From Alloyangia mangrovi (GTDB taxonomy: Bacteria > Pseudomonadota > Alphaproteobacteria > Rhodobacterales > Rhodobacteraceae): a DNA stretch of 38,170 nucleotides. The position numbers and the translations under genes are program-made. The stretch covers positions 1 to 38,170 of the forward strand of contig NZ_NTHN02000056.1 of NCBI RefSeq assembly GCF_002300555.2, given 5' to 3'. The notes beneath the pieces are model-generated. The model was not told the DNA's origin, did no database searches, and worked only from the letters and a program-made list of their open reading frames with translations. Shown piece by piece: positions 19,784 through 36,094 of this stretch (the stretch's first letter is position 1; each line of letters opens with the position of its first letter).

Positions 19784-19795
19784 TACATACTTTGG
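19784..19795. promoter_or_regulatory. TACATACTTTGG box upstream of repeat-protein gene 1
   Basis: The same 12 bases recur at 29909-29920 near the glycosyltransferase start. The core ATACTWTNG also occurs twice in the 32.7-33.1 kb intergenic region. It sits in AT-rich DNA about 155 bp upstream of the first repeat-protein gene. It is a candidate binding site for the locus response regulator; shared 12-mers can also arise by chance in a window this size. Confidence 0.35.
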
Positions 19796-19837
19796 GTTAT
19801 AGACTTTGTGATGTTTTTTCCTGTAGTGTGGGGAAAT

Positions 19838-19868
19838 CGGGAGGGAGGCTCTCCCGCGCCAAAGGCGC
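19838..19868 (+). promoter_or_regulatory. Tandem hairpins in the leader of repeat-protein gene 1
   Basis: CGGGAG (19838-19843) pairs with CTCCCG (19851-19856) over a 7-nt loop. Directly after it, GCGCC (19856-19860) pairs with GGCGC (19864-19868) over AAA. The two stems share one base, so they could compete. They lie about 80 bp before the GTG start and could act in leader control or attenuation. Confidence 0.35.
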
Positions 19869-19949
19869 TTATCAGAGAATATCTGGTGCATTTTGAAGGC
19901 AAGCGGCACAGCAGACATCGCCGCAAGCCACACTTTAGGAGAGACCTTG

Positions 19950-21417
19950 GTGTCTGAAGTTAGAGGCAAGGACCGCAGAGGAGAGCAGCGACTGTCGACA
20001 GAGACAGCCGTCGAGCAACCTCTTGCGCCGCGGCACAACCAGACCCAGAACCTCCGTACCGACTTCGCACAGATCGCCACAGCGGCCAATGCGGCGGCTA
20101 TTGGGATGGGCCTCGCGGCACAGGCCGAGGCTGGCTCCCAGCATGACACCCTGGGCGAATCCGAAAACACGTCGCTTCAGGAGCCCGACAACGGCTCCGC
20201 GAGAAACCTCTTCGAGGCAGCGCAAGGGCAAGTCAGCCCTGAAATCGCGTCAGACACGCTGGCCGACGCGCCAGATGCAGGTGACTCCGCAAGCGTGTTC
20301 ACCGCCGCTCAGCCAGACGCTGATCGGACGAGCGGCACCGCCAGCGCCGCGGCGATTCCTTCGGACGCTTTCGCAACGCAGCCCGCGTCCTCTTCGACGC
20401 CCGTGGCAGGAGACGGTCCTGCCGAAGGAACTGCGACGGCGGATTCCGGCCCCGCGGCAACCGCCGGCGTCGCACCACCTCTCGCGCCGGCAACTGTACC
20501 GGGCGCGCAGCAGGCTTCCGAAAGTTCTCCCCCCCGTCGGCGGTTCTGCGGAGGTCGGCTCGCAGCTCGCCACAGCAGGGACCGACGACGACGCAACGGG
20601 CACCGACAGGGGCGCGGGCCCGGTTCACGACACGCTCACCGGCGACAGCGGCATCGTCACGGGTGCCCTCGACGCCGTCGCCGGGGAGGACGGGCTGCTC
20701 GACAGCACCCTCGATGTGGTCGCAGGCGACGAGGGCCTTCTCGACACGCTCACAGGCGACAGCGGCATCGTCACCGGCGCCCTCGGCACCGTCGCCGGAG
20801 AGGACGGCCTCCTCGACAGCACCCTCGATGTGGTCGCAGGCGACGAGGGGCTGCTGGGCGGCCTGCTGGGACTGTCCGGCGCGGCGGAAGATCAGACATC
20901 GGAGGACGATTTTCTCGCCTCGCTGCTCCTCCCCGAAGGAGACGATCAGCTGATGGGCAGCGTGCTCGACGGGCTCCTCGGCGAGGATGACCCTTTCGCG
21001 CTCTCGCCCGATGACGCGGACGCCAGCACCCTCGGCGACGGCACCAGCGCGCTGCTTGCCGGACTTGGCATTGAGGACGGTCTCAGCGGCACCCTCGTTG
21101 ACGAGGGTGTCGTCGACGCCGCGGCGATGGACGTGGAGGACAGCCCCGAGGTCGATGCCCTTCTGACCGAAATCCTTGGAAGCTCGGTCGATGGTGATCT
21201 CTTTTCCAGCTCCCAGGGAGCCTTCGACGCCCTGTTCAACTTTGGCGACAGCGAAGGCGACACGATGGAGCCGGTCGCGGAGGGCGACGACAGCCTTCTC
21301 GGCGAAACCGCGATCGACGGCACCCTGGCCGGGCTCTTCGAAAGCAGCAGCGGAGACGGCCTGCTTTCCGGCCTTCTAAGTGGCGACGGCGACGGGCTCG
21401 ACAGCGAGAACAGTTGA
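19950..21417 (+). CDS. Acidic Gly/Leu/Asp repeat protein 1 (apparent frameshift at a C7 run)
   Basis: I start at GTG 19950 because AGGAG lies eight bases upstream. The frame breaks at seven C (20529-20535). Dropping one C joins both halves into a 488-residue protein, reading ESSPPVGGSAEVGSQ across the join. Layout: a polar N-terminus with a short hydrophobic AANAAAIGMGLAAQAEAG stretch, an Ala/Ser/Thr/Pro-rich linker, then from about residue 220 an acidic repeat domain with a tandem 38-residue unit (GLLDTLTGDS plus two 14-residue units ending AGED/AGDE). There is no RTX calcium nonapeptide, and Cys is essentially absent. I recognise no named family. Its position beside a type I exporter and its likeness to the repeats at 33109-34602 suggest an exported matrix or surface protein. 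Confidence 0.75.
20629..20856 (+). repeat. Two tandem 114-bp units (38 residues each) in repeat protein 1
   Basis: Copy one is 20629-20742 and copy two 20743-20856. They are near-identical at DNA level, differing mainly at third positions plus a Gly-Thr for Asp-Ala change. This suggests a fairly recent in-frame duplication, then synonymous drift. Confidence 0.85.
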
Positions 21418-21753
21418 TCGAATTCCTGTGGCCACCCGCGGCTCAATAGCGCGCAACGCGCCAAATTTAAGTCAAACTTGTATGCCAAAATTCCACTAAC
21501 TGCCGAGGCATTCCGCAATCTGAATTCCTTACATTCGGCTTCCGAGAGTGCAAAAAGGCGTTGCACCCAGCGGTTGATTGCTGCAGAAATAAAGATGAAT
21601 AGCCAGTACATGTTTCCACATTGAGCAGTGCTTCACGACCCTGTCTCAATCAGAAAGCCTGGAATCATCGTGCTGACACCATTTCAAGGTGTCGTTCAAA
21701 TGAGGAGATTGTGGGGATAGACGCTGCCGTCCATTCGGTGAGGAGTGCGTGGT
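21418..21753 (+). promoter_or_regulatory. Intergenic region upstream of the secretion operon
   Basis: 336 bases without a supportable gene, AT-rich in 21460-21620, so it probably holds the promoter of the five-gene export operon. An inverted repeat GACACC (21675-21680)/GGTGTC (21688-21693) with a 7-nt spacer could be an operator. A GTATG half-site occurs at 21480-21484. No clear -35/-10 pair can be named. Confidence 0.4.
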
Positions 21754-22578
21754 ATGGCAATAGAAGTGTTGGCGCGCGCCCTGTCTGGAAATTCTGGGGC
21801 GTCGCGGGTTGTGACTTCGCACCTAACCCTGCGAGAATCCATGGAAATCAGCCTCACGGAAGAGAGTGGCGGCATTTCCCGATATCTGAAGTCCGGATCC
21901 GACCTGGAGATATATTTTCAGGACGGTCGAGCGTTGAATATAGAGAATTTCTTTGTCTCAGGGCCCGATGGGGAGTTCAGTTCTCTCGTCGGTGACGAGG
22001 GCACGACGCTGGTATCCGGCCTTCTCGTTCCCGAACCTGATGCCGAGTCATTGGGATTGGGTGATGCCGAAGCCGATATTCCTGACGCTACCACTGCAGA
22101 TTCAACGGCAATAGCTGATCTGGATCTTGAGAGTGGCTCCGCGCTTTCCTTTGCCGAGTCCATGGCTGGTGAGTCCGAAATAGACCCCGGCCCGCCATGG
22201 CCTCTCGGGCTTGGAATCGCGTCGGGACTCGGCGGCCTCTCGCTGCTCTCCGACGCCCCCGGATCAGACACCGGCTCCGCCTCCGACCAGCCCGCCGAAA
22301 CCCCGAACGCCGCGGTCGCAAGCTCAATGATCGACGACGAAGAGATCGCCAACCTGCTGGGGCCAAATCCCACTTATGCGGCGCTCGACGATGAGCTTGC
22401 GGAGTTGCTGCAACCGGCTGCCACATCTTCTGAAGGCGCCCCCGATACGGCACTGCCGGACGCAACCGAGGGTCTTATTCCCGTGGACGACATTCATCTC
22501 GACACGGAAGCGGACCTCACGGCTGTCGCCAGCGTACCGGAGCTCCTGCAAAACGATCCCATTGAAAGCGAGCTATGA
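21754..22578 (+). CDS. BapA-prefix-like domain protein, first gene of the export operon
   Basis: 274 residues. Residues about 40-85 (GGISRYLKSGSDLEIYFQDG, then LNIENFFV) match the prefix domain found at the N-terminus of BapA-type biofilm adhesins: a Y-x(5)-DL-x-I strand, a nucleophile-free G-R turn and an N-FF segment. After an acidic linker comes a Gly-rich hydrophobic stretch near 150-167 (GLGIASGLGGLSLL), as in large adhesins, but there are no repeats afterwards, only an acidic disordered tail. ATG 21754 has AGGAG eight bases upstream. Its stop overlaps the TolC-type gene start (ATGA). The 5' part is AT-richer than its neighbours. It may be a minimal adhesin, a plug/anchor, or an exporter accessory; function unknown. 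Confidence 0.75.
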   Translation: MAIEVLARALSGNSGASRVVTSHLTLRESMEISLTEESGGISRYLKSGSDLEIYFQDGRALNIENFFVSGPDGEFSSLVGDEGTTLVSGLLVPEPDAESLGLGDAEADIPDATTADSTAIADLDLESGSALSFAESMAGESEIDPGPPWPLGLGIASGLGGLSLLSDAPGSDTGSASDQPAETPNAAVASSMIDDEEIANLLGPNPTYAALDDELAELLQPAATSSEGAPDTALPDATEGLIPVDDIHLDTEADLTAVASVPELLQNDPIESEL

Positions 22579-23849
22579 AACTTCACCGACTTTCCGGCTG
22601 TCTCGGGCTGCTAAGCCATATCGCCGCCTGCGCAGCACTGGCCCTTTGCCTCGCGCCCAGCCCGGTCGCGGCGCAGATGAGCCTGACGCGGGCGCTGGGG
22701 CTCGCCACCGAGCTTGACCCGACGGTGACCGCGAAGCGCCAGGTGGTGGCGAGCCGGACACTGGGGATACAGGAAGCGCGCGACGCCTATTATCCCAGCG
22801 TCAATGTCTCCGCCGACAGCAACACTACCGACGCCAACGGCCCCGGGATCACCCTGACGATATCCCAGGTGCTCTACGACTGGGGGCTGATCCGCAGCCA
22901 GATCAAATCCGCGACCCAAGCCAGGGTACGCTCGATCTCCGACCTCAAGATGGCGGTCGAGGCGTTGACGCTCGATGTCGCCGAGGCCTTCCTTGATGTC
23001 GAGATCGCCGATCGCAAGATCGCGCTGACCAACGAATACGCCGACTACGCGGGGCGTCTCGCGCGGCAGGCCGAGGATCGCGCCCGCGCCGGGCTGGGGG
23101 ACAACGGCGAGGTCGCGCGGGCCCGGCTCGAAATCGCCCGCGCCGAAGATCGGCTCGCCACGCTGCGCTCGGACCGCGCGCTCAGCCTGTCGCAAATCGG
23201 CTTCTTGACCGGGCGCGACCCAAGAGGCGTTGCCGCGCCGCCGTCGCTCGGCTACGCCCGCCGCTACGGCAGCATGGAGCAGATCCGGCAAGCCGTGCGT
23301 ATCGCCCCAGATTACGTGGCAAGCCAGGCCAGCGCCGCCGAGGCCGAGGCCGAGGTGCAGCGCACCAAGGCCGCCCGGCTGCCGACGATCAGCCTGCAGG
23401 CCGAAGGTCGCACCGATCTCAACGGCGGACGCACCCGCACCGCGCTCGGCATTGCCGCCGGCGTCGACCTCAACGCTTCGACGGTCGGCGGACGCAGCCT
23501 GCAGATCTCGCAGCGCGACTTTGCCGCGGCGAAATACAATCTTCAGGGGGTCGAGCGCCAGCTCATCAATGTGGCGCAGACCTCGCTGCAACAGCTGAAC
23601 GCCCTGCGCGCGACCGAAGCCGCCCGCGCCGGGCAACTCGAGGAATCCCGCCGCGTGCTCGACACCTACGAGGAACAATTCACCGCCGGTCAGCGCGATC
23701 TGATCGACGTGCTGACCACCGGGCGCGATCTCTACGATGCACAGATCGAGCAGGTGGAGACCTATGAAGACCGCAAACGAACCGAATACGAGGCGGCGCA
23801 TGACCTCGGTGTGCTGGGCACGCTGATCCTCGAAGCCAGCCGGACCTAA
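22575..23849 (+). CDS. TolC-family outer-membrane channel (AggA/LapE type)
   Basis: 424 residues with a signal peptide (to about residue 34, ending SPVAAQ). Two TolC-type repeats are visible: the N-terminal one with ISQVLYDWGLIRSQIKSA and the second with a long helix region and YEEQFTAGQRDLIDVL, the family's conserved GQRxLxDVL-like motif. The protein would trimerise as an outer-membrane barrel with a periplasmic tunnel. It starts inside the stop of the prefix-protein gene and precedes the ABC exporter and adaptor genes, forming the outer part of a type I secretion system. Confidence 0.92.
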   Translation: MKLHRLSGCLGLLSHIAACAALALCLAPSPVAAQMSLTRALGLATELDPTVTAKRQVVASRTLGIQEARDAYYPSVNVSADSNTTDANGPGITLTISQVLYDWGLIRSQIKSATQARVRSISDLKMAVEALTLDVAEAFLDVEIADRKIALTNEYADYAGRLARQAEDRARAGLGDNGEVARARLEIARAEDRLATLRSDRALSLSQIGFLTGRDPRGVAAPPSLGYARRYGSMEQIRQAVRIAPDYVASQASAAEAEAEVQRTKAARLPTISLQAEGRTDLNGGRTRTALGIAAGVDLNASTVGGRSLQISQRDFAAAKYNLQGVERQLINVAQTSLQQLNALRATEAARAGQLEESRRVLDTYEEQFTAGQRDLIDVLTTGRDLYDAQIEQVETYEDRKRTEYEAAHDLGVLGTLILEASRT

Positions 23850-23885
23850 TGACGTGACCTGATTGACGAGTTCTGGAGAAGCCGC

Positions 23886-26018
23886 ATGTCCGATCGACCG
23901 CAGACCGACCCGCTTGTCACAGGCCTCATCGAGCTGTGCCGCAGCCAAGGGGTCTCGACCTCGGCGGTGCGGCTCACCGATGGGCTGCCCCTGCCCGAGG
24001 ATGGCACCATGTCGGTCGATACCGCGGCGGCGGCGCTGCGGCGCGTCAACATGAGCTGCCGGGTCAGCCGCGAGCCACTCTCCTCCTACCCCGCACACAG
24101 CCTGCCGGTGCTGCTTTTCCTGCGCTGCGGGCGCACCGTGGTGCTAGAGAAGCTGAGCAAGGTCAGCGCGACCGTGGTGCTGCCAGAGGCCGACGGCGGC
24201 CGCGCGGTCTGGGGCCGGCGCGAGCTCGAGGCGCTGCATGACGGGCGGGTGCTGGTGTCGAAGCCGATCGACATCACCTCGGACCGGCTCGACGAAAAGG
24301 CCGCGGACCGCAGCCACTGGATCCTCGGGCCGGTGCTGCGCAACTGGTGGGTCTATCGCGATGTCGTAGTCGCCTCTTTCGCCGCAAACCTTCTGGCCAT
24401 CGCCACCGCGCTCTTCTCGATGCAGGTCTACGACCGGGTCGTGCCGAGCAATGCCTTCGACACGCTGTGGATCCTCGCCTCGGGCGTCGGGCTCGCGATC
24501 GTGCTCGAACTGGTGCTGCGCATCACCCGCGCCGCTCTGGTCGATGTCTCGGGCCGCGACCTTGACCTGCGGCTCTCGGCACAGCTCTTCGACAAGGTCG
24601 CGAACATGCGGCTGGCGCATCAGCCAGCCTCGACCGGGGTGTTTGCCAACCAGGTCCGCGACTTCGCCACGGTCCGAGAATTCTTCACCTCGGGCACAGT
24701 CACCGCGCTCTGCGACATCCCCTTCGTTCTGATCTTCGTCGCGGTGATCTGGTTCATCGGCGGGCCGATCGCCCTCGTCACCCTCGCCGGAGTTGCGATG
24801 ACTGTGGTGCCCGGGCTGCTGATGCAATCCCGGCTCGCCCGCGCGTCGCGCGAGAACACCCGCGAGGCCGCGGCGCTGAACGGGCTGCTGCTCGAGACCA
24901 TCTCGAACCTCGAAACGGTCAAGGCCGCCCGCGCCGAGACCCGGCTGCAGCGCGCCCATGCGCAGCTCTCCGCGACCATGGCCAACACCTCGGTCAACAC
25001 CCGCCGCCTGACGACGCTGATGACCCAGATGGTCGGCGGAGTGCAGAAATTCGCCTACGCCGGGGTGATCATCACGGGCGTCTACCTGATCAGCGCCGGC
25101 GAGCTGACCGTCGGCAGCCTCATCGCCTGCACCATGCTGTCAAGCCGCACGTTGACCCCGATGAGCCAGGTTGCGGGGCTGCTGGCGCGCTGGCAGCAGG
25201 TCCGCGCCGCGCTCGAAGGGCTCGATCGCATCATGGCGCTGCCGGTCGAGCGCCCCGCCGACCGCCACTTCGTTCGCGCCAGCGACGTGCGGGGCACCTA
25301 TCGGGTCGAGGATGTCGCCTTCCGTCATGACCCCGCCGCGCCACCGATCCTGCAGATCCCCGAGTTGCGCATCGACGCGGGCGAGCGCATTGCGCTGCTC
25401 GGCGGCAATGGCGCGGGCAAATCCACCTTCCTGCGGCTCATGGCGGGCTACATCGACGCCCAGCAGGGCAGCATCCTGCTCGACGACCTGGCACTCGGGC
25501 AGATCGACCCGCTCGACCGGCGCCGGCAGATCGGCTACCTGCCGCAGTCGGTGGCGCTGTTCCAGGGCACGCTGCGCGACAACCTTCTGCTCGACCACGG
25601 TTTGCATAGCGATGACGAGCTTCTTGCCGCGCTGGATGCCGTGGGACTCGGCAGCTTCGTGCGACGCCACGTGCGCGGGCTCGACCTGCAGCTGAGCGGC
25701 AACGGCAACGTTTCTGGCGGGCAGCGCCAGTCGATCGGCCTTGCCCGCGTGTTGCTGCAGGATCCGCGCGTGGTGCTTCTCGACGAACCCACCGCGGCGC
25801 TCGATCACATCACCGAGGCGCGAGTGATCGCATACCTAAAGACCTGGCTCGAGGGGCGCACGGTGATCATCTCGACCCACAAGCGCGAGCTGCTGGCGCT
25901 GACCCAGCGCACGCTCGTGCTGAAGGACGGCAAGGTGGCGCGCGATGGTGATCTGGCGCAGATTCTCAACGCCGCCCGCGCCCGCACCGTACAGAATGCC
26001 AAGGTGAAGGCGGTCTGA
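23886..26018 (+). CDS. Type I secretion ABC exporter (LapB-like, with inactive C39-like N-terminal domain)
   Basis: 710 residues. Residues 1-140 resemble a C39-peptidase-like domain without the catalytic Cys, as in exporters of large adhesins and RTX proteins, where it binds the substrate. A six-helix membrane domain spans about 155-440. The nucleotide-binding domain has Walker A GGNGAGKST near 505, signature VSGGQRQS near 608 and Walker B VVLLDEPTAALD near 627. GGAGA precedes the start. The stop overlaps the adaptor start (TGATG). It energises export through the adaptor and TolC-type channel; likely cargo are the repeat/prefix proteins encoded on either side. Confidence 0.93.
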   Translation: MSDRPQTDPLVTGLIELCRSQGVSTSAVRLTDGLPLPEDGTMSVDTAAAALRRVNMSCRVSREPLSSYPAHSLPVLLFLRCGRTVVLEKLSKVSATVVLPEADGGRAVWGRRELEALHDGRVLVSKPIDITSDRLDEKAADRSHWILGPVLRNWWVYRDVVVASFAANLLAIATALFSMQVYDRVVPSNAFDTLWILASGVGLAIVLELVLRITRAALVDVSGRDLDLRLSAQLFDKVANMRLAHQPASTGVFANQVRDFATVREFFTSGTVTALCDIPFVLIFVAVIWFIGGPIALVTLAGVAMTVVPGLLMQSRLARASRENTREAAALNGLLLETISNLETVKAARAETRLQRAHAQLSATMANTSVNTRRLTTLMTQMVGGVQKFAYAGVIITGVYLISAGELTVGSLIACTMLSSRTLTPMSQVAGLLARWQQVRAALEGLDRIMALPVERPADRHFVRASDVRGTYRVEDVAFRHDPAAPPILQIPELRIDAGERIALLGGNGAGKSTFLRLMAGYIDAQQGSILLDDLALGQIDPLDRRRQIGYLPQSVALFQGTLRDNLLLDHGLHSDDELLAALDAVGLGSFVRRHVRGLDLQLSGNGNVSGGQRQSIGLARVLLQDPRVVLLDEPTAALDHITEARVIAYLKTWLEGRTVIISTHKRELLALTQRTLVLKDGKVARDGDLAQILNAARARTVQNAKVKAV

Positions 26019-27190
26019 TGAATTCTCCCGAGTATTTCGACCCGAGCCATGTCGACGGTAGCTTCCGTCGCCAGACCCTCGCGAAGTCGCGGCTCACCAT
26101 ACAGGTCGTCGTGCTCAGCGTGCTGGCGGCGATCGGCTGGTCGGCCGTGGCCCAGGTCAACGAGGTCACCCGCGGCGACGGCCGCGTGATCCCCGCGCGG
26201 CGCATGCAGACCATCCAGAGCCTCGAGGGGGGCATCCTCTCCGAGCTGACGGTGCGCGAGGGCGACATCGTCCAGCAAGGGCAGGTTCTGGCCCGGCTCG
26301 ACCCCACCCGTTCGCAATCGGCTTTCATGGCCACGCAATCGCAGATCACCGCGCTCACCGCCGAGGTCGCACGGCTCGAGGCCGAGGTGCTGGAACATCC
26401 CGAGCTGAATTTCGGAGACACCCCGAACGACGCCGAGCGCACCGAGCTTCGGCTGTTCAACGCGCGCCGTACAAAGCTCGAGGCGTCGCTCACCGCGCTC
26501 GAAAGCGAGCGCAACGCCATCGAGGAGCAGATCGCCATCACCGCCCCGCTCGCCGAGCGCGGCTCGGTCAGTCGCATCGATCTGCTGCAGCTGCAGCAGA
26601 AGAAAGCCGAGCTCGACGGCCGCATCGGCGAGGCGCGCAATGCCTATGTCCAGGACGCCTACAAGGACCTGGCGCAGCGCCGGGCCAAGCTCGCGACGCT
26701 GCAGGAGGAGGTGGTGCAGAAACGCGACGAGCTGCAGCGGACCGACGTGCGCTCGCCGGTCGAGGGCAGGGTCAACAACATCGCCATCACCACGCTCGGC
26801 GGCGTGGTGCAACCCGGCGAGCCGATCATGGAGATCACCCCGATCGATGATCAGCTGGTGATCGAGACAAAGGTGCTACCTCGCGACGTCGCCTTCGTGG
26901 CGCCCGGCATGGCGGCAAGCGTGAAGATCACCGCCTACGACTTTTCCACCTACGGGGATCTGCGTGGCACGGTGATGCAAATTTCCGAGGATACGGTGGA
27001 AGAAGAAACCAAACAGGGGCCGCAGGATTTCTACCGGGTCATGGTCGGCACCGATCAAAACTACCTCGAGCGCTACGGCGAGAAATTTTTCATCCGCCCC
27101 GGCATGGTGGCGCAGGTCGATATCGAGAGCGGCGACCGTTCGGTGCTCAGCTATCTGACTCGCCCGCTGCTGAACGCCCGGCTGCGCTGA
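26018..27190 (+). CDS. Type I secretion periplasmic adaptor (HlyD/LapC family)
   Basis: 390 residues. A short cytoplasmic N-terminus and one membrane helix (about 28-47) are followed by a biotinyl-lipoyl-like half (VIPARRMQTIQSLEGGILSE), a long coiled coil (about 100-245, Glu/Arg/Leu rich), the return lipoyl half (VRSPVEGRVNNIAI) and a beta-barrel domain. HlyD-family adaptors link the ABC exporter to the outer-membrane channel. Start and stop overlaps show it is made together with the exporter. Length and order are standard. Confidence 0.93.
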   Translation: MNSPEYFDPSHVDGSFRRQTLAKSRLTIQVVVLSVLAAIGWSAVAQVNEVTRGDGRVIPARRMQTIQSLEGGILSELTVREGDIVQQGQVLARLDPTRSQSAFMATQSQITALTAEVARLEAEVLEHPELNFGDTPNDAERTELRLFNARRTKLEASLTALESERNAIEEQIAITAPLAERGSVSRIDLLQLQQKKAELDGRIGEARNAYVQDAYKDLAQRRAKLATLQEEVVQKRDELQRTDVRSPVEGRVNNIAITTLGGVVQPGEPIMEITPIDDQLVIETKVLPRDVAFVAPGMAASVKITAYDFSTYGDLRGTVMQISEDTVEEETKQGPQDFYRVMVGTDQNYLERYGEKFFIRPGMVAQVDIESGDRSVLSYLTRPLLNARLR

Positions 27191-27203
27191 CAGAAGGCAA
27201 TCA

Positions 27204-28577: not shown

Positions 28578-28592
28578 GGCAGTTCAACAGCG

Positions 28593-29834
28593 CTAGCGCC
28601 CCGCGCCCCTGACCCGCGCGTCCCGGTTTTCCACGGCCTGCCGGAAGAGCCCCATGTAGCGCGGCGCGACCGCGGGCAGGCTGTAGTGCAGCCGCGCGAG
28701 ATATCGCGCCTTCTGGCCGTAGCGGAAGCGTCGCGCCGGGTCTTGGGCCAGCGCCTCGATCTCTGCGATCCAGGCGTCGTCGTCATCGGGCAGCAGCCGC
28801 CCGTTGATGTCGTCGAAGATCAGCTCGGCCGCATACCCCCGGTCGGGCGCCAGCACGCAGCCGCCGCGACCGAGGATCTCGACCAAACCCCAGTTGGCGA
28901 CGCCGAACTGCAGCGGGTAAAGAAAGAGGTCGATGTCCGAGAGCCGCTGCGCGAACGCCTCGTAGGGGAGTTTGCCGGGAAATTGGATCACCTCGGCGGC
29001 CCGCGGATAGACTTGCAGCAGGTGATCGCGGAAGCTGGCCACGGCACCACCATACTTGCGCGCCACCCATTGCTGCTCATAGCCGTAGGTGCTGCCTTCC
29101 GCGCCACCGAGCGCCACGAACTCGGCCTGCAAGCCGCGCGCCACCAACTTGTCGGCCAGCCGCACGAAGACCTCGAACCCCTTTGAGCTGGACAGGTCGC
29201 GCGCCGAGAACCCGATCGTGAAGGGCCCGGCTCCTTCTCGCGGGGGAGCGGTCTCATCCTCGAAGGCGAAGCCCTCGAGCTGCACCTCGATATTGGCTTG
29301 CAGCGCCTTAGGGAACATCCGCTTGGCGTGCTGGCTGGGGCAGATCACCAGATCGCTGCGCAGCGCCTGGTGGAAATTCAACATCTCGAGGTTCTTATCG
29401 CCCATGCGCTGCGACTGGTCCGGCGGGTAGTCGATGCTCCAGCCGTGGGCTTGGTAGCTCGGGAACTCGATGTAGCTGACGATCGCGGCACCGGTCTCGC
29501 CATAGAGAAAATGCGGCGCGCCCCAAAGCGAATGCGCGATGATCACATCGATCTTTTTCTTTTCCTCGAATTGCTGCACCGCGCGCAGCAGCCCTCGCCC
29601 GATCCGCGCCGAGCGCTCGAGCTTAGCGGTATAATAGTAGCTCTGCGGCCCCACCACGGGCCCGTCGGGCGCGAACTCCAGGATGTGCTCACCACGATGG
29701 GCGTTGCGCGCGCGGTGGCCGGGGGTGGTCAGGAAGTAGGTCTCCGCCAGCCCGGCTTGCCGCAGGTAGTCACACAGATGGCCGAACTGCCCCGGATAGA
29801 CCGCCCCGGCAAACACGATGACCGGCTTTCGCAT
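28593..29834 (-). CDS. Glycosyltransferase (GT-B fold, GT4-like)
   Basis: 413 residues of GT-B type. The N-terminal Rossmann half begins VIVFAGAVYPGQFGHL; the C-terminal half has IGFSARDLSSSKGFEVFVRL and the sugar-nucleotide site region DLFLYPLQFGVANWGLVEILGRGG, with the conserved E-x(7)-E-like spacing. There is no signal or membrane helix, so it is cytoplasmic. The start at 29834 is supported by GAGGTGA; a GTG nine bases earlier is possible. It converges on the export operon with 15 bp between, and could make a surface glycan or modify the acidic Ser/Thr-rich exported proteins; the target is unknown. Confidence 0.85.
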   Translation of the reverse strand: MRKPVIVFAGAVYPGQFGHLCDYLRQAGLAETYFLTTPGHRARNAHRGEHILEFAPDGPVVGPQSYYYTAKLERSARIGRGLLRAVQQFEEKKKIDVIIAHSLWGAPHFLYGETGAAIVSYIEFPSYQAHGWSIDYPPDQSQRMGDKNLEMLNFHQALRSDLVICPSQHAKRMFPKALQANIEVQLEGFAFEDETAPPREGAGPFTIGFSARDLSSSKGFEVFVRLADKLVARGLQAEFVALGGAEGSTYGYEQQWVARKYGGAVASFRDHLLQVYPRAAEVIQFPGKLPYEAFAQRLSDIDLFLYPLQFGVANWGLVEILGRGGCVLAPDRGYAAELIFDDINGRLLPDDDDAWIAEIEALAQDPARRFRYGQKARYLARLHYSLPAVAPRYMGLFRQAVENRDARVRGAGR

Positions 29835-29908
29835 GTACTTCACCTCGCCTCATCGCCCGGACAAAGCCTAGGCTCGAGCGTAGGTTAGAAGACCCCGCAG
29901 CCGAGAGA

Positions 29909-29920
29909 TACATACTTTGG
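29909..29920. promoter_or_regulatory. Second TACATACTTTGG box, upstream of the glycosyltransferase gene
   Basis: Identical in 12 bases to 19784-19795, about 75 bp upstream of the glycosyltransferase start on the minus strand, in the short gap after the response-regulator gene. Candidate regulator site. Confidence 0.35.
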
Positions 29921-29963
29921 AGAGTCGTGCGTGGGTTGCGGCAGTTCCGCCACGCCGCCGGGC

Positions 29964-30606
29964 TCAGATGATGTTCATATCGCGCGCGACGATCACCGCC
30001 TGCGTGCGGTTGCTCGCCTCAAGCTTCGAGCAGATGGATTTCACATGCATCTTGACCGTCGCCTCCTTCAGCCCCAGCGCTGCCCCGATGTCGCGGTTGG
30101 ACTTGCCCTCGGCCAGTTCGGCCAGCACATCGTTCTCGCGCTCCGACAGCTGCGCCGCCGCACGCGGCTCGCGCGGGGCAACGCGCTGCCTCTCGATCAA
30201 CTCGACCGGGATGTAGCGCCCGCCGGCCGCCATGAAGCGGATCTCGTTGGCAAAGGCCTTGAGCGAGGTGGTCTTGAGCACGAAGCCCGCACCCCCCCAG
30301 CGCCAGTACCTCGGGCACCAAGTGTGCCGGCGGATTGCTGGTCAGCAGCGCCACGGGCTTGCCGCCATTGCGGCTGATCGCGCGGCCCAGCCCTTCAAGC
30401 CCGTTCATGCCCGGCATGTTGAGATCAAGCAGGACCAGATCGTAGGGCCCGTCGCGGTCGATCGCCGACAACGCCGTATCGAGATCCGGCGCCGTCGACG
30501 CGCTCACGTCGTCGAGATTCTCGATGAACTGTGCAAACATCTCGAGGACCATGGCATGGTCGTCGGCGATGAGGATGCGAACCGGCTCCGCACTCTTGCT
30601 GGTCAT
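29964..30606 (-). CDS. NarL/FixJ-family response regulator (apparent frameshift at a C7 run)
   Basis: The receiver domain opens RILIADDHAMVLEMF (acidic pocket) with phospho-acceptor Asp61 in VLLDLNMPGMNG. At seven C on the plus strand (30292-30298) the frame breaks after about residue 103. With six, the protein continues GAGFVLKTTSLKAF and ends in a LuxR-type helix-turn-helix (LSERENDVLAELAEGKSNRD, then TVKMHVKSICSKL), 213 residues in total. As written, the DNA-binding half is lost. It lies downstream of the hybrid kinase gene on the same strand (115 bp gap), so the pair is the likely signal pathway for the surface locus. The gap has an inverted repeat CCATAT-N9-ATATGG (30662-30682). Confidence 0.85.
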
Positions 30607-30721
30607 GTCTCTCTATCCTTCGGGCACGGACTCTGCGGATGGCGCGGATCGCACCGCAAGTCCATATCGGGCCTCAATATGGCAAGGAACGCAGCGCTCC
30701 GCCAGCACCACTCCTCGCGCC

Positions 30722-32680
30722 TCAGAATGGCGGGTCACGAAGTGCCGCAGCGGTGCGCTCCAGCGCTTCGGCCAAGGCGGCCATCTCGGCCGCGGCGGCG
30801 CCCTGCCCCGCCTTCACCGCATCTTCGAGCCCTCGCAGCCGGCGCTCCGCCAGCGCAAGCCCGGTCAGGCCGCAGGCGCCGGTGGCGGCGTGCAGCGCGC
30901 ATCCCGATGCGGCGTTGAGCCCTCCGCGCAGCAACACCAAAGCCTGCTCGGCCTCGGCCAGCGCCCGCGCCATGAAGGCCAGTGCCCGGTCGCGGCCAAG
31001 CTCGCTCGCGAGCTCCGAGACCACCTCCAAAGCGATCACCGGTTCCTGCGGGTCCGCCGCGCTGTCCGTCCGGCCCGCCACTGGCGTATCGAGGGGATCG
31101 GAAACTGTGCCGCGCAGGGTCGCCAGTGCCGCGCAGAGCTGCCCGGGTCGGATCGGCTTTTCCAGCACCTCGACCATGCCCACCTTCAGGCAAGCCGCGC
31201 GGATCCGGGCATCCACATGCGCCGTGAGCCCGACGATCCGCAGCGCCGCCGGGAAGACGTTCTGCCTCACGCCCGCCATGATGCGCCGCGCCAGCTCGAC
31301 GCCATGGATCTCGGGCAAGGTGACATCCGAGAGCACGATATCGACCGCGCCGGCTTCGGCCAAGCGAAGCAACTCCAGCGCCTCTGCGCCGCTCCCTGCC
31401 TCCTGCACCTCTGCACCGGCATTGCGCAGAACCTGGCAGAGCCAGCTTCGACTTGCCGGACTGTCCTCTATCACCAAAATCCGCGCCCCGACCAGCGCCT
31501 GCTCCGCGTCGGCTTCGGGTTCCGGCTCGGGAATCTCGATCGCTGTCGGCAGACTGAAGCGCGCCCGCAATATTGTGCCGATGACCTCCAAGCCGTTTTC
31601 GGCCGTAGCGGGCCTGTCCTCGATCTCCAGCGTGCCGCCCAGTTGCCGCAACGCATGCGCGAGCACCTCGAGGCCGCCCGAGCGCCTTTGAGTCGGGCGT
31701 GCATCTGCCGGCGCGGCCGGAACCAGCGCTGGCACATTCCCAGCCGCCACGTGGCCAAGCGCCTCCTGCAGCCGCGCGCGCTGCGCGGGCGGCAGACCGC
31801 CGCCGAGGTCGCGCACCTCGAACCTGATCTCCAGCAACGGCTCCCCGTCCGGGCCAAGCTTCGGCAAAGGCGTCAGCCGCAGCTCTGCCTCGATCTTGGC
31901 GCCGCCGTGTTTCACCGCGTTGTCGAGCATGTTCTGGAACAGGGCCCGTACGAAGCGCACCGGCCCGTGGACCTGCTCCGGCCCGGCGGACCCGGCGTGT
32001 AGGCCAAGTTCTGCGCCGCGCTGCGCGGCCAGCGGCTGCAGCATCGCCACAAGCGCTTCCACCTCGGCCGCCGGAGAAAAGGGAGCGTCGGGCTGAAGCC
32101 CGCTGCCGCGTTGCTCGCCGCGCAGCACCGAGAGCACGTTGCTGACATGCGCCAACGACAGATCCGCCGCGCGGCGCAGGCCGGCCAGCGCCCCGGAACC
32201 GGCGGTCGCTCCGGTGACCAGCGCCTCCGCAGAGGCAAGCAGCGACTGGATCGGCGTTCGCAGGTCATGCGCCACGCGCAGCAGCGTCGCCGCCCGCGCG
32301 CGATTCCGCAGCCATGTCGCCTCGTCCTCGCTGTCCGACAGCCGCAGGAACAGGCCTGTCGCGGGGCCGACCGGCAGCGCGACAAGTTCCCCCTCCAGCT
32401 CCTGCCCCATCAGTGTCACCGCGACACGGGCGCTGCCGGCACGCCGCGCGCGCGCGCTGATCTCGGGCCAGTCAAGCACCGAACGAAGCCGCGCCGCGTC
32501 GATGCCGAGCGCCTTGGCCGGGGCATTGGCCAGCAGGATCTGCCCCTCCTCGCTCGCCAGCAACGCTGCACGGCGGTCGGTGGCGATGAGCCGGGCGATC
32601 ACCTGCACCACCGGCCGATAGACCGAGACATCCTCTCCCGCGCCGCTTTCCGGCGACGGCGCACGGCGTTCTCCTGTCAT
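30722..32680 (-). CDS. Hybrid histidine kinase (PAS-like, HisKA, HATPase, receiver, HPt)
   Basis: 652 residues with no membrane helix, so a cytoplasmic sensor. A PAS-like region lies at about 20-115. HisKA has phospho-acceptor His138 (RVAHDLRTPIQ). The ATPase N box is FQNMLDNAVKHGG (250-262), with DLGGGLPP as G box. A receiver at 400-525 has IEDSPAS and Asp452 (LSDVTLPEIHG) and Lys in LEKPI. The C-terminal helical HPt-like region has His597 (ALHAATGACGLTG). This gives an internal four-step phosphorelay that would end on a separate response regulator, presumably the FixJ-type protein encoded just downstream. The signal is unknown. Confidence 0.9.
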   Translation of the reverse strand: MTGERRAPSPESGAGEDVSVYRPVVQVIARLIATDRRAALLASEEGQILLANAPAKALGIDAARLRSVLDWPEISARARRAGSARVAVTLMGQELEGELVALPVGPATGLFLRLSDSEDEATWLRNRARAATLLRVAHDLRTPIQSLLASAEALVTGATAGSGALAGLRRAADLSLAHVSNVLSVLRGEQRGSGLQPDAPFSPAAEVEALVAMLQPLAAQRGAELGLHAGSAGPEQVHGPVRFVRALFQNMLDNAVKHGGAKIEAELRLTPLPKLGPDGEPLLEIRFEVRDLGGGLPPAQRARLQEALGHVAAGNVPALVPAAPADARPTQRRSGGLEVLAHALRQLGGTLEIEDRPATAENGLEVIGTILRARFSLPTAIEIPEPEPEADAEQALVGARILVIEDSPASRSWLCQVLRNAGAEVQEAGSGAEALELLRLAEAGAVDIVLSDVTLPEIHGVELARRIMAGVRQNVFPAALRIVGLTAHVDARIRAACLKVGMVEVLEKPIRPGQLCAALATLRGTVSDPLDTPVAGRTDSAADPQEPVIALEVVSELASELGRDRALAFMARALAEAEQALVLLRGGLNAASGCALHAATGACGLTGLALAERRLRGLEDAVKAGQGAAAAEMAALAEALERTAAALRDPPF

Positions 32681-33108
32681 CGCGGTCCCTCCTGCGGCCT
32701 GGCGGGCAAGTCGCGCCCAGGGTTTGATTATAGACAGTTGTGATGCGATTGCGCCCCGTCCGGTACAAAAGTCTCGGGTTCAAGCAGATGAATCACATAC
32801 TATAGTATGCATCACCCAGGGTCGCATGATTCCAGCGACCACCGACACCCAGAACGCGGCGATCCGAAAGTGGCATTTTTCCATACATTCGCCTTAATTT
32901 AAATGATTTTTGTTTCCAATTCCTCGCGCAATGACGCCCTGGAAGGGCAATAGACGCTAGAAACGCGGTGAAAGCTCTTCAACCCAACCAAACGACAATA
33001 GTATGTTGACGGACGATACTTTCGTATGTTTTGATACATACCAAATAGTGTACTTCTATTCTCACGACCCCGCACCGAATGCGCGGGTTATATTGCAAGG
33101 GTTGAAAG
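32681..33108. promoter_or_regulatory. Divergent intergenic region with CATAC/GTATG palindromes
   Basis: 428 bases, AT-rich, between the kinase gene (minus) and repeat protein 2 (plus); no gene seen. It holds a perfect 14-bp palindrome CATACTATAGTATG (32796-32809). Closer to repeat protein 2 is a cluster: ATACTTTCG at 33016-33024 and GTATG-N8-CATAC at 33024-33041. These share the core ATACTWTNG with boxes at 19787 and 29912. TAC-N4-GTA dyads are reminiscent of NarL/FixJ-type sites. Promoter function is strongly suggested by position; binding is inference. Confidence 0.5.
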
Positions 33109-34602
33109 ATGGCTGAAACGGTTATTCAGGCAGGTCAGGAAATCGGCATCCGCATCGATGCTGTCTCCGCAGACATTGCGCGCTACACGCGGCAAGGAAA
33201 GACGCTGATCGTCGACTTGAAGAACGGCGACCGGGTGATCATTAATGATTATTACACACCGGCAGAAAACAATTCTCTGCACAGCCTGATCCTTGGCGAT
33301 TCCGAAGAGGCGGCGGTCGAGGGCGAAGGGGCTGCCGGCCTCGGAATGAGCATGGAAGATCAGGCCGCGCTCGCCGCAGCGGGCATCGGCACCCTTGGCC
33401 TCGCTCTGGCGAGCGGCGGAGGCGGAGGCTCCAAGAAGGACCCAACCGACAGCACCGATCCGACTGATGGGACGGACGGCACCGACCCGACCGATGGAAC
33501 CGACGGTACCGATCCGACAGATGGAACCGACGGCACCGACCCGACCGACGGGACAGACGGCACCGATCCGACCGACGGAACGGATGGCACCAACCCGACC
33601 GACGGTACGGACCCAACGGATGGCACCGATGGGGTGGGCACGCAGGGCTTCCTCGACCCGCTGGTCGCCGACGAGGGCCTGCTTGGAGATGTCACCGGAA
33701 ATGACGGGGTACTCGGCGAGGTGACAGGGTCTGAGGGCCTGCTCGGCGAACTGCTCGGACCTCAATCCGAGCTCAGTGAGCCCTTCGAAACCCTGATCGG
33801 CCAGCCCCTGCTCGGCGACGGCACCATCAGCTCGGAAACCGGGATTGCCGACGGACTTGTCTCCGACGACGGGCTTCTGGGAGATGCCACCGGCAACAGC
33901 GGCGCCCTCGGCGAGGTCACAGGCTCGGAGGGCCTGCTGGGTGAGCTGGCCGGCAACGATGGCGCGCTTGCCGAGATCACCGGCAGCGACGGGCTTGTCG
34001 GCGAGCTGACCGGAACCGGATTGCTCGGCGACAGGGATGGCACATCCGACGGGACACCCGGCACCGGTGAGCTGCTTGACGGCATACTTGGCGAAGACGG
34101 GTTGCTCTCCGGCGTCCTCGACAGCGGCGAGGGCCTGCTCGACCCTGTGATCGCCGATGACGGCCTGCTTGGCGACCTCACCGGCAACACAGGCGCACTT
34201 GGAGAGGTCACTGGTTCCGACGGTCTGCTCGGCGAATTGGTCGGCAACGATGGCGCGCTCGGCGAGATCACCGGCGACGCCGGGCTTGTCGGTGAGCTGA
34301 CCGGAACGGGACTGCTCGGTGACGGCGACGGCAGCGATGGCGGCGGCGTGGATGAGCTCCTCGGCGAGCTCATCGATGGCAGCTCCACCGAAAGCCTCCT
34401 CGGCGGCGAGACCCCGCTCGACGGTATCCTCGGCGAGAACGGCCTGCTGGGTGACAGCGGACTTCTGGGCGACGAGGGCCTGCTCGGTAGCGGCGAGTCT
34501 CTGCTCGGAGGGCTGACGGATGGCCTGAGCGGCGAAGGATCGCTGCTTGGCGGTGACCTGCTCGGCGGCCTCTCCGGCCCCGGCGAAGAAGATTTCAGCT
34601 GA
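33109..34602 (+). CDS. BapA-prefix acidic repeat protein 2 (decapeptide Gly-Leu repeats)
   Basis: 497 residues. Residues about 8-66 form a BapA-prefix-like domain (ADIARYTRQGKTLIVDLKNG, then IINDYYTP and SLHSLILGD). A hydrophobic Ala/Gly segment (86-102) ends in five Gly (103-107). A DPTDGTDGT nonapeptide tract covers 111-175. The rest is built of ten-residue units with the pattern G-[LA]-[LV]-G-[DE]-[LVIA]-T-G-[NS]-[DSE], followed by a looser GLLGD-rich tail. There is no RTX nonapeptide, no Cys and a very acidic composition. AAGGG lies seven bases upstream of the start. Prefix domain and nearby type I exporter suggest a small adhesin or matrix protein; the exact role is unknown. Confidence 0.8.
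   Translation: MAETVIQAGQEIGIRIDAVSADIARYTRQGKTLIVDLKNGDRVIINDYYTPAENNSLHSLILGDSEEAAVEGEGAAGLGMSMEDQAALAAAGIGTLGLALASGGGGGSKKDPTDSTDPTDGTDGTDPTDGTDGTDPTDGTDGTDPTDGTDGTDPTDGTDGTNPTDGTDPTDGTDGVGTQGFLDPLVADEGLLGDVTGNDGVLGEVTGSEGLLGELLGPQSELSEPFETLIGQPLLGDGTISSETGIADGLVSDDGLLGDATGNSGALGEVTGSEGLLGELAGNDGALAEITGSDGLVGELTGTGLLGDRDGTSDGTPGTGELLDGILGEDGLLSGVLDSGEGLLDPVIADDGLLGDLTGNTGALGEVTGSDGLLGELVGNDGALGEITGDAGLVGELTGTGLLGDGDGSDGGGVDELLGELIDGSSTESLLGGETPLDGILGENGLLGDSGLLGDEGLLGSGESLLGGLTDGLSGEGSLLGGDLLGGLSGPGEEDFS
33439..33633 (+). repeat. DPTDGTDGT nonapeptide tract (27-bp units)
   Basis: Tandem Asp-Pro-Thr-Asp-Gly-Thr units, about seven, with many different synonymous codons, so the repeat is kept at protein level. 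It probably forms a stiff, highly charged linker or calcium-binding stalk between the prefix domain and the decapeptide region. Confidence 0.85.
33664..34323 (+). repeat. Decapeptide repeat array in repeat protein 2
   Basis: Three blocks begin at 33664, 33859 and 34150, each opening with [VI]-[AS]-D-[ED]-GLLGD. Blocks two and three each hold five ten-residue units (for example GALGEVTGSE, GLLGELAGND, GLVGELTGTG). The starts of blocks two and three are 97 codons apart. Block one has three units. Regular Leu and Gly spacing suggests a stacked beta-type solenoid. Confidence 0.8.
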
Positions 34603-34630
34603 CCCCACTCACGGAACAACAGCTGAAACC

Positions 34631-34669
34631 GGCCTGCCCCGCTCCCCACCCCCTTCAGCGGGGCAGGCC
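34631..34669 (+). terminator. Strong hairpin after repeat-protein gene 2
   Basis: GGCCTGCCCCGCT (34631-34643) pairs perfectly with AGCGGGGCAGGCC (34657-34669) over a 13-nt loop, 29 bp after the stop. C-rich, not T-rich, sequence follows. GGCCTGCCCC recurs at 34711-34720 just before the next start codon, so the right arm could alternatively pair there and hide that start. Confidence 0.65.
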
Positions 34670-34720
34670 CCCCCAAATCCCCAGTGATCCCCCCAAGTTT
34701 CCAACCGAGAGGCCTGCCCC

Positions 34721-35014
34721 ATGGACCAGCGCCCAAAGCCATCCCGGCCCTCACGGACCCTGGCCTATGTCGCTCGCGGCGGCTGCCGAACGAACTGGAC
34801 GCAATTGCCCTTGGGGCAGCGCAGCGCAGCGAACCGCTGCGCTGCCCCTGCAGCCGGTGACGAAGCCGCGGAGGATGCCAATTTCCGCTCCCACGCAGTG
34901 GACCTGTCCCACAACGACGGCGCCCCCCGCGTCTTCTGCTCCGGCTGGTGGATCGCTCCGGCAACCTGCGTTGGCACCTTGGGCTGGGTCGCGCTGATCG
35001 CAGCCGTGCTGTGA
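34721..35014 (+). CDS. Hypothetical small protein with a C-terminal membrane helix
   Basis: 97 residues with a polar, Arg/Ala-rich N-terminal two-thirds containing four Cys in the body and a C-terminal hydrophobic segment (WWIAPATCVGTLGWVALIAAVL) that could be a tail anchor. GAGAGG lies seven bases before the ATG. I recognise no family, and codon third positions are only moderately GC-biased, so it may not be real. It sits between repeat protein 2 and the receiver protein gene, same strand. Confidence 0.4.
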   Translation: MDQRPKPSRPSRTLAYVARGGCRTNWTQLPLGQRSAANRCAAPAAGDEAAEDANFRSHAVDLSHNDGAPRVFCSGWWIAPATCVGTLGWVALIAAVL

Positions 35015-35089
35015 TCCGGCCCGCCCGGTTGCGCCGCCACGAGCCCTCACGAGACCGTCTTGTCTCCACTGACCGAAGAGGACCATTTC

Positions 35090-36094
35090 ATGCGACTTCT
35101 AGCCGTCGACGACAGCCCGGTGATGCGCGATTTGATTCCGCTGCTCGTCGACAACGACATGGTGGTCAGAAGCGCGGCCTCCGGATCAGCGGCCCTGAGC
35201 ATTTTGCAGGGCTCTGAGCAGCCCTTTGACTGCCTGCTGCTCGACATCGAAATGCCGGGCATGGACGGGATCGAGCTGTGCCGTCATGTGCGCAGTCTGC
35301 CACGCTACACGCTGACCCCGGTCATCATGCTCACGGCACGCACTGACGGGGGCAGCATCGAGGCCGCGTTTGCCGCCGGCGCCAATGACTACATCACTAA
35401 GACCCTGAATACGCGCACGCTCAGGGGACGCCTGCGTGTCGCCGAACGGCTGCGCGATGCGTCCGGGATGTTCCGGTGCGACCGGCGCCGGCTGAGTACC
35501 TTCGGGAAGCCTCGCGGAGCGCATCCCTTTTGCGCATCACAGAGTGTCACCATCCTCGGCACCGGTCAGATGATCGACCCGTTCTCCCTTGGAAACTACC
35601 TCGCGCAGCTACCGCGCCGCGATATCGAACACAGCCGCATCTTCGGGGCCCGGCTCGAGAACTTCGAGAAGATTTATCGCAGCACCACCACGCCCGAATT
35701 CGGAGACCTCTTGGTGGAGGTGGCGGAGGGGTTACAGGCCTTGGTGAGAGCATCATCGGCACTGACCTGCTATGACGGCAACGGCACGTTCATATGCCTC
35801 GCTCGCAGCGCCGATTTGCCCGCGACCGACCAGATGGAGGCCGAATTGGCCGCCCACCTTCAAGCGACCTGGCAGCAGGGCGCGACCGCTGCGTTGCCAC
35901 CATTGACCATCACGCTCGGCACCCCGGTCACGCCCTTCGCGAACAAGACCCAAAGGGTGCGCAAATCCCTGCTGCGCGCGCAGGCCCGGCTCGAGGCGCG
36001 TTCAGCCCGAAAGGGCCTCGGTCCCGCGGGGACACGGCACCCGCGGGAGACGATCTCTATGCGTGCCGCGGGCCTCGACGTGCCCCGGAACTGA
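35090..36094 (+). CDS. Receiver protein with degenerate GGDEF domain
   Basis: 334 residues. The receiver domain (1-120) is intact: acidic pair in LLAVDDSPVMRD, Asp52 in LLLDIEMPGMDG, then MLTA and Lys in YITKTL. Residues about 155-315 follow the diguanylate-cyclase pattern (FSLGNYLAQLPRRDIEHSRI, FGDLLVEVAEGLQALVRASS), but the signature loop reads YDGNGTF where GGDEF is expected, so cyclase activity is almost certainly lost. It may instead bind a partner or GTP. Start at 35090 has GAGG upstream. It fits a c-di-GMP-themed biofilm locus and may be an extra output of the nearby kinase. Confidence 0.75.
   Translation: MRLLAVDDSPVMRDLIPLLVDNDMVVRSAASGSAALSILQGSEQPFDCLLLDIEMPGMDGIELCRHVRSLPRYTLTPVIMLTARTDGGSIEAAFAAGANDYITKTLNTRTLRGRLRVAERLRDASGMFRCDRRRLSTFGKPRGAHPFCASQSVTILGTGQMIDPFSLGNYLAQLPRRDIEHSRIFGARLENFEKIYRSTTTPEFGDLLVEVAEGLQALVRASSALTCYDGNGTFICLARSADLPATDQMEAELAAHLQATWQQGATAALPPLTITLGTPVTPFANKTQRVRKSLLRAQARLEARSARKGLGPAGTRHPRETISMRAAGLDVPRN

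Follow-up and report, generated by a model that had tools for sequence, protein, structure and literature searches.

Introduction

In type I secretion the substrates are exported C-terminus first, and retention of an N-terminal prefix has been reported for LapA-like adhesins. For LapA/LapBCE with LapD/LapG, as well as for SiiE with its exporter, an N-terminal module is thought to hold the adhesin at the surface. Here we analysed a locus of Alloyangia mangrovi on the 38170-base contig NZ_NTHN02000056.1 (the whole contig is called the window), in which open reading frame (ORF) calls and Pfam/TIGR profile searches located, at 19950-36094, a type I exporter array with its flanking genes, including an Omp85 protein with a single POTRA domain. 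In some Rhodobacterales this Omp85 turned out to be the constant neighbour of one exporter clade, which suggests, as far as gene content can tell, that exported surface proteins pass through an additional step of assembly or anchoring.

A close described system is BapA/BapBCD of Paracoccus denitrificans. Its bapA is located immediately upstream of the exporter genes, and attached growth was severely impaired when bapA or the exporter was lost (PMC5588039). As in the window, an acidic repeat gene stands beside three type I exporter genes. However, the repeat of BapA is Asp-Ala, the order of the exporter parts by gene number is different, and the gene table, in the portion of that paper available, gives bapA, bapB, bapC and bapD with Omp85 unmentioned (PMC5588039). 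BamA-like Omp85 proteins with one to three POTRAs have been described as well; like the window protein they consist of POTRA and barrel, are additional to BamA and lie apart from it in the tree (PMC4104836). The term type I secretion is absent from the available portion of that article, whereas the Omp85 family of the window is bound to one exporter clade. TamA of the TamA-TamB system is likewise an Omp85 additional to BamA, but with three POTRAs (PMC4104836) instead of one. No match to the TamB family was obtained among ten window proteins scanned. The TamB homologue MorC is reportedly linked to leukotoxin export. The LapA/LapG system differs by its LapG-type protease: PF06035 gave no match in the A. 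mangrovi genome, while Caulobacter matches were obtained among 14 control genomes, and release of the LapG type was rejected on this ground. In open-licence PMC we found no published description of a type I exporter combined with an Omp85, which does not imply absence in print. The parts are known, and the combination is new at the level of a conserved lineage.

Linkage of the Omp85 gene and the exporter

The family survey covered 394 genomes, with cut-offs of E 1e-60 for Omp85 and E 1e-200 for the ATP-binding cassette (ABC) protein and two ABC candidates scored per genome. Omp85 was found in seven genomes and the exporter ABC in six. All six genomes with the ABC clade carried the Omp85 on the same contig, compared with one of the 388 genomes without this ABC; that one (G273) is a 73%-complete metagenome-assembled genome whose contig ends in Tad genes beside the Omp85. 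When a looser cut-off was used and five ABC candidates were scored per genome in 198 family genomes, an ABC match was obtained in 80, five of them at 64-100% identity and the other 75 at 46% at most, and none of these 75 had the one-POTRA Omp85. In six examples of this sister lineage (L106-L111), chosen as nearer outgroups for an ABC tree, the ABC gene shared its contig with a BapA_N gene, as in the window, and the two were 4.8-6.8 kb apart; the ABC was 41-46% identical to the window ABC and the BapA_N frames had 1053-1736 amino acids. Unlike the window, these six genomes gave no match to the one-POTRA Omp85.

The genes of the locus are as follows (positions in the window):

19950-21417, plus strand: acidic repeat protein of the c1 family, BapA_N undetected, 38-residue period, frame-broken
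21745-22578, plus strand: prefA, small acidic prefix protein with BapA_N-like N-terminus and no repeats
22575-23849, plus strand: TolC-type outer membrane channel (OEP PF02321, 140.6 bits)
23886-26018, plus strand: type I ABC exporter of LssB/LapB type (TIGR03375 LssB, 792.5 bits, cut-off 693.1)
26018-27190, plus strand: HlyD-type periplasmic adaptor (TIGR01843, 320.7 bits, cut-off 208.65)
27204-28577, plus strand: one-POTRA Omp85, BamA-like (PF01103, 89.1 bits, cut-off 24)
28593-29843, minus strand: GT4-type glycosyltransferase, convergent with Omp85 (Glyco_trans_4_3, 93.9 bits)
29967-30606, minus strand: LuxR-type response regulator, frame-broken in this assembly, intact in the relative L038
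30722-32680, minus strand: hybrid sensor kinase with receiver (profile search)
33109-34602, plus strand: prefB, with BapA_N prefix, T/D/P-rich linker and repeats of 10/20 residues (profile, period analysis, model)
35060-36094, plus strand: receiver with degenerate GGDEF-like domain (profile search)

Of 47 public loci gathered, 44 (L038-L081) are family members and three (L082-L084) are not. The 44 are not 44 independent cases because several rows are near copies (L044/L045, L042/L080, L050/L076 and L066/L069). ABC and HlyD were each present in 41 loci, TolC in 40, a BapA_N-type protein in 37, the regulator in 36, the kinase in 34 and the glycosyltransferase in 18; the glycosyltransferase was thus rejected as an obligatory member. 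A c1-like match was seen in 34 loci, cross-matches among c1, prefA and prefB included. In 24 of the 44, a prefA match stood directly upstream of TolC, at most 1.3 kb away, and a prefB-type protein was the best match in 32. Three loci had no nearby ABC: L074 has it 17 kb off on the contig that holds the Omp85, Tad genes lying between the two and next to them, and in L068 and L075 the contig breaks off. The distance between HlyD and Omp85 was below 200 nucleotides in 32 of 42 scored loci; in nine it exceeded 2 kb, and each of these had Tad genes in the interval. On three plasmids of Sulfitobacter, of which two are near copies from a single strain, 13-17 kb of toxin-antitoxin, insertion sequence or metabolic genes displaced the glycosyltransferase and the regulators, and HlyD and Omp85 were still 145 nucleotides apart; BapA_N genes followed HlyD/Omp85 on two of the three, and the third stretch ends first. 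The preliminary description had made its proposal depend on conservation of the Omp85 gene with the exporter in relatives, and this expectation was borne out. It is very probable that the Omp85 works with this exporter. A chance ORF artefact is ruled out by the profile matches and the family of 44 loci.

The locus is patchy and not in G088 of the same genus, and it is plasmid-borne in nine PLSDB records (22 records matched). A search of 292 genomes of the order with P0112 matched two. The nearest relatives at the locus are Salipiger mangrovisoli (Omp85 96% identical) and Alloyangia pacifica (91-92%). The gene set is present in A. pacifica (L085) and in Paracoccus versutus (L059). Sulfitobacter sp. 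DSM 110093 holds two near-identical copies on two plasmids (L121, L122) with the same TolC, ABC, HlyD and Omp85 accessions. L039, titled Enemella evansiae (an actinomycete), holds a full locus of Rhodobacterales type and looks mislabelled or contaminated.

The one-POTRA Omp85 protein

The predicted model of the Omp85 was confident and comprised a single POTRA (residues 55-117) and a 16-strand barrel (124-456), in agreement with the one-POTRA assignment of the preliminary description. The N-terminal helix (23-43) was interpreted as a signal, and the POTRA carries the invariant C73 and C92. Its fold is that of BamA POTRA5 plus barrel. The Omp85 signatures were retained: RGF in 87 of 87 sequences (345-347 in the window protein) and F-x-D/E-x-G with D or E in 79 of 87. 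Since Pfam POTRA_1 was sub-threshold (12.2 bits, cut-off 23), the POTRA was assigned from the model and the fold. With a PF01103 barrel, RGF, 16 strands and a POTRA, the protein belongs to the Omp85 superfamily. It is neither BamA proper (one POTRA; TIGR03303 121.1 bits vs cut-off 297.15) nor TamA (one POTRA; NF047950 23.9 bits vs cut-off 625), and a plain copy of either was ruled out by its separate clade in the trees and its single POTRA. The genome holds three PF01103 matches, namely the window Omp85, one frame of 831 amino acids and one of 609. Among the BamA loci (L009-L033), three rows alone passed the length and motif filter, and the genome's own BamA did not. L045 (a copy of L044) and L079 were left out of all trees, and L072 was also absent from the ABC tree with nearer outgroups.

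Translocases exist within the Omp85 superfamily, such as FhaC and PlpD (PMC4104836, in the portion available), and the window protein could act as a TpsB-like pore for some substrates, such as the prefix-less repeat protein encoded upstream. A second translocation route of this kind is very improbable: the model shows one POTRA, POTRA_2 (PF08479) was absent from the window proteins at E 1, and a signal peptide on the acidic proteins was not apparent by eye (no predictor run).

Two other arrangements were observed. At L097:10156-11496 and in L101 (G063), a different Omp85 of 446 amino acids, one-POTRA-sized, is divergent from a TolC-like gene and from a frame of 3357 amino acids opening with a LEDRIVLDG motif; an Omp85 of this length was seen in G063 alone among 198 genomes, and it is perhaps an independent pairing with a giant surface protein. 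In Roseicyclus (L082:1-10450), a giant LEPRIML protein of 2295 amino acids, TolC (TIGR01844 79.6 bits), an RND/HlyD-type adaptor (TIGR01730 85 bits) and Omp85 stand in a row, and this Omp85 frame of 376 amino acids is too short for a full POTRA and barrel.

Exporter class, gene spacing and acidic proteins

A TIGR03375 ABC, a TIGR01843 HlyD and a TolC in one locus place the exporter among type I systems of the LssB/LapB class, and the window ABC was the sole LssB-class match above the family cut-off in the genome. The TolC was under the TIGR01844 cut-off (126 vs 225.15 bits), though it matched PF02321. The preliminary description had proposed a translationally coupled operon of five genes. All five genes are present in a tight array; however, overlaps were found at only two of the four junctions, as the spacings are a 4-nucleotide overlap (prefA/TolC), a 36-nucleotide gap (TolC/ABC), a 1-nucleotide overlap (ABC/HlyD) and a 13-nucleotide gap (HlyD/Omp85).

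Two flanking acidic repeat proteins had been described before. The locus has three acidic proteins, all poor in Lys/Arg, and decapeptide repeats occur in 33109-34602 alone. Their non-RTX, BapA-prefix nature was supported in the following terms. The GGxGxDx motif had no match in the three proteins and RTX Pfam families had none in the window proteins, so an RTX adhesin was ruled out. BapA_N (PF22783) matched 33109-34602 with 38.5 bits over the cut-off of 27, which makes this a type I system of BapA type; 21745-22578 scored 25.4 bits, below the cut-off. The genome has two BapA_N matches in all, and this locus holds both. Periods of 10 and 20 residues were found in the last 317 residues of 33109-34602 (z 6.8 and 8.6, 200 shuffles), and a period of 38 (z 5.9) in the last 289 residues of the upstream protein. 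Ig-like Pfam domains were absent from the window proteins, which are thus not giant Ig-repeat adhesins of the type of SiiE or Salmonella BapA. Some Celeribacter homologues of 33109-34602 combine BapA_N with Ig-like PF17963/PF17892, and the prefix is therefore tied to adhesin-type proteins.

The predicted model of 33109-34602 had a predicted local distance difference test (pLDDT) value of 65 and a predicted template modelling (pTM) score of 0.29; BapA_N (about residues 3-65) was confident, the linker was of low confidence, and the repeat region formed short turns roughly each 10 residues. Foldseek gave no match of this model at E 0.001 or below, and two PDB sequence matches hit the linker and repeat and appear to be low-complexity. 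One AAAG stretch follows the prefix; we take it to resemble the LapG cleavage site, yet a LapG gene was not found in the genome. From their position, and by analogy with BapA of P. denitrificans, it is plausible that the acidic proteins are substrates of the window exporter. Among BapA-type type I systems, the locus forms a variant of its own.

Profile matches agree with the earlier statement that a glycosyltransferase and a kinase/regulator pair flank the array, the regulator being frame-broken here. For 35060-36094, the receiver domain of the proposed receiver-GGDEF-like protein was found, but its GGDEF match was weak (15.6 bits vs cut-off 23.8); the starts in relatives correspond to 35060 and 35090. 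Frame breaks lie near 20531 in the upstream repeat gene, which encodes 602 amino acids in L038 and 749 in L085, and between 30286 and 30314 in the response regulator, which has 213 amino acids when intact; both may be assembly errors or real decay. By eye, the C-terminal end of a SulP-type transporter frame (17361-19142) is apparently out of frame, perhaps a third indel on the contig. In 14 loci, small receiver-like proteins of 151-232 amino acids form one cluster, mostly between Omp85 and the regulator (for example L056:13212-13787 and L047:11407-11886), and one protein checked had no Pfam match.

Tad-pilus genes and the position of the Omp85 gene

Tad-pilus genes were found between HlyD and Omp85, or beside the locus, in about fourteen relatives. 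The CpaC secretin, CpaD and TadE stand between HlyD and Omp85 in L056, L064, L065, L067, L070-L073 and L078, with TadG in six of these nine; the families in L064 are PF00263, PF09476, PF07811 and PF13400. L068 shows the same Tad genes as far as the contig end, and in L075 TadG adjoins Omp85. Further genes, namely CpaF, CpaE-like and F-type (TadB/C), occur on Thioclava plasmid pTElox9 and in Sinirhodobacter L098, those of L098 being named by eye and similarity. Pseudosulfitobacter pSMR1-2 has a window-like gene order, directly after which comes what looks like a full Tad locus including Flp pilin. In Oceanicola S124 (L043), CpaC is beside c1, together with genes that by eye resemble CpaB and Flp pilin. 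The Tad labels of L068, L074, L075 and L086 were assigned by hand. On the plasmids of A. pacifica, Qingshengfaniella and P. sp. DSM 107133 and on the three Sulfitobacter plasmids, Tad genes are unannotated in the stretch examined, the PLSDB annotation being incomplete; the window had no Tad gene among the genes examined, and TadE-type genes are on other contigs of the genome. At least two of CpaC, CpaD, TadE and TadG were within 10-kb flanks in at least 10 of 44 loci, a lower bound because such flanks missed farther Tad loci, as in pSMR1-2. In Thioclava (L086:14724-18080), TadE and TadG of the composite locus are separated by two inserted genes, one of the Mur-ligase family and one hypothetical.

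The Omp85 trees placed the Tad loci at the base, and the ABC tree with far outgroups nested them. With six nearer outgroups, the loci without Tad insertion formed one clade in the ABC tree (100, Shimodaira-Hasegawa-like approximate likelihood ratio test), and the Tad loci as one clade were not rejected by the approximately unbiased test (p 0.81). This tree therefore indicates one switch, of either direction. The proposal that Tad genes were ancestral and lost in the clade of the window was dropped, as the Omp85 and ABC trees disagree on the rooting.

The recurrence of Tad loci within or beside the locus, its patchy distribution (7/394 genomes) and its presence on plasmids would fit an Omp85 that travels in a mobile surface-structure island and serves the Tad pilus or a GT4 glycan, not the exporter. 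However, such hitch-hiking is improbable: the glycosyltransferase and the paired Tad markers occur in a minority of loci (18 and, within those flanks, 10 of 44), while no partner is as constant as the exporter, which stays attached on the three plasmids where the rest is displaced.

The nine loci with CpaC between HlyD and Omp85 also bear on another explanation, in which the Omp85 would be a pared-down BamA dedicated to the locus. It would insert TolC, together with the CpaC secretin where Tad genes are present, and would never contact the exported proteins. The BamA POTRA5-like fold and the retained RGF and F-x-D/E-x-G signatures agree with this, and BamA-like proteins with one to three POTRAs were hypothesised to be assembly factors (Heinz and Lithgow; PMC4104836, available portion). 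Nevertheless, 51 genomes with BapA_N and 75 with the sister ABC manage without such a factor, and the Omp85 persists even where the available flanks showed no secretin gene. To our knowledge, TolC and secretins do not normally have an Omp85 of their own for their assembly, which counts against it too. We regard a dedicated assembly factor as rather unlikely.

A possible mechanism of surface anchoring

Our tentative explanation, whose chances we put somewhat below even, is a BapA-type exporter lineage in which the one-POTRA Omp85 forms a fourth envelope part that anchors the substrates. In this explanation ABC, HlyD and TolC would export the non-RTX acidic repeat proteins in one step, and the N-terminal BapA_N prefix would exit last and be held on the periplasmic side. 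The POTRA may then bind or receive the retained prefix and the barrel may anchor the exported protein in the outer membrane, by which TolC would be freed to take on another of these proteins, of which a locus has up to four. If the prefix is retained, the POTRA is a natural receptor and the barrel a natural anchor; several surface proteins could then share a single exporter. If it is not, the Omp85 most probably serves TolC and, in Tad loci, the secretin; both explanations take into account that a type I substrate bypasses the periplasm. The chances of the anchoring step taken alone are likewise somewhat below even. A POTRA disulfide (C73/C92), a handover to the barrel and the repeated use of TolC are conjectures. 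Also possible, though unlikely, is a stronger form: the Omp85 as an obligate surface-assembly subunit whose disulfide-stapled POTRA docks the prefix and which remains the permanent anchor, with a composite Tad island in one Rhodobacterales branch building both pilus and coat.

Several observations weigh against surface anchoring by the Omp85. BapA_N was found in 56 of 198 family genomes, of which only five had the Omp85; since 51 of 56 lack it, a prefix protein does not in itself require the Omp85. Together with the sister ABC, this contrast identifies the window exporter as a separate lineage beside a commoner one, marked by the Omp85. In the upstream protein (19950-21417), the profile search did not detect BapA_N. 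Seven of the 44 loci (L052, L053, L068, L072, L074, L077 and L079) gave no BapA_N-type match; some are cut by contig ends and L074 has two BapA_N on its contig, but L052 and L077 have none despite full 10-kb flanks. The adjacency of HlyD and Omp85 is not strict because of the Tad genes that separate them in nine loci. Finally, type I export bypasses the periplasm, and the Omp85 would therefore meet the retained part only.

In textbooks type I secretion is a three-part, one-step route, and Omp85 proteins are insertases or type V translocases; the lineage described here would join both fields. It would provide a compact, well-defined setting in which to study how surface proteins of type I systems stay attached without LapG, and it hints at a function for one group of orphan BamA-like proteins with a single POTRA. 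The Tad linkage suggests that Rhodobacterales plasmids carry their surface functions as modules put together around this core.

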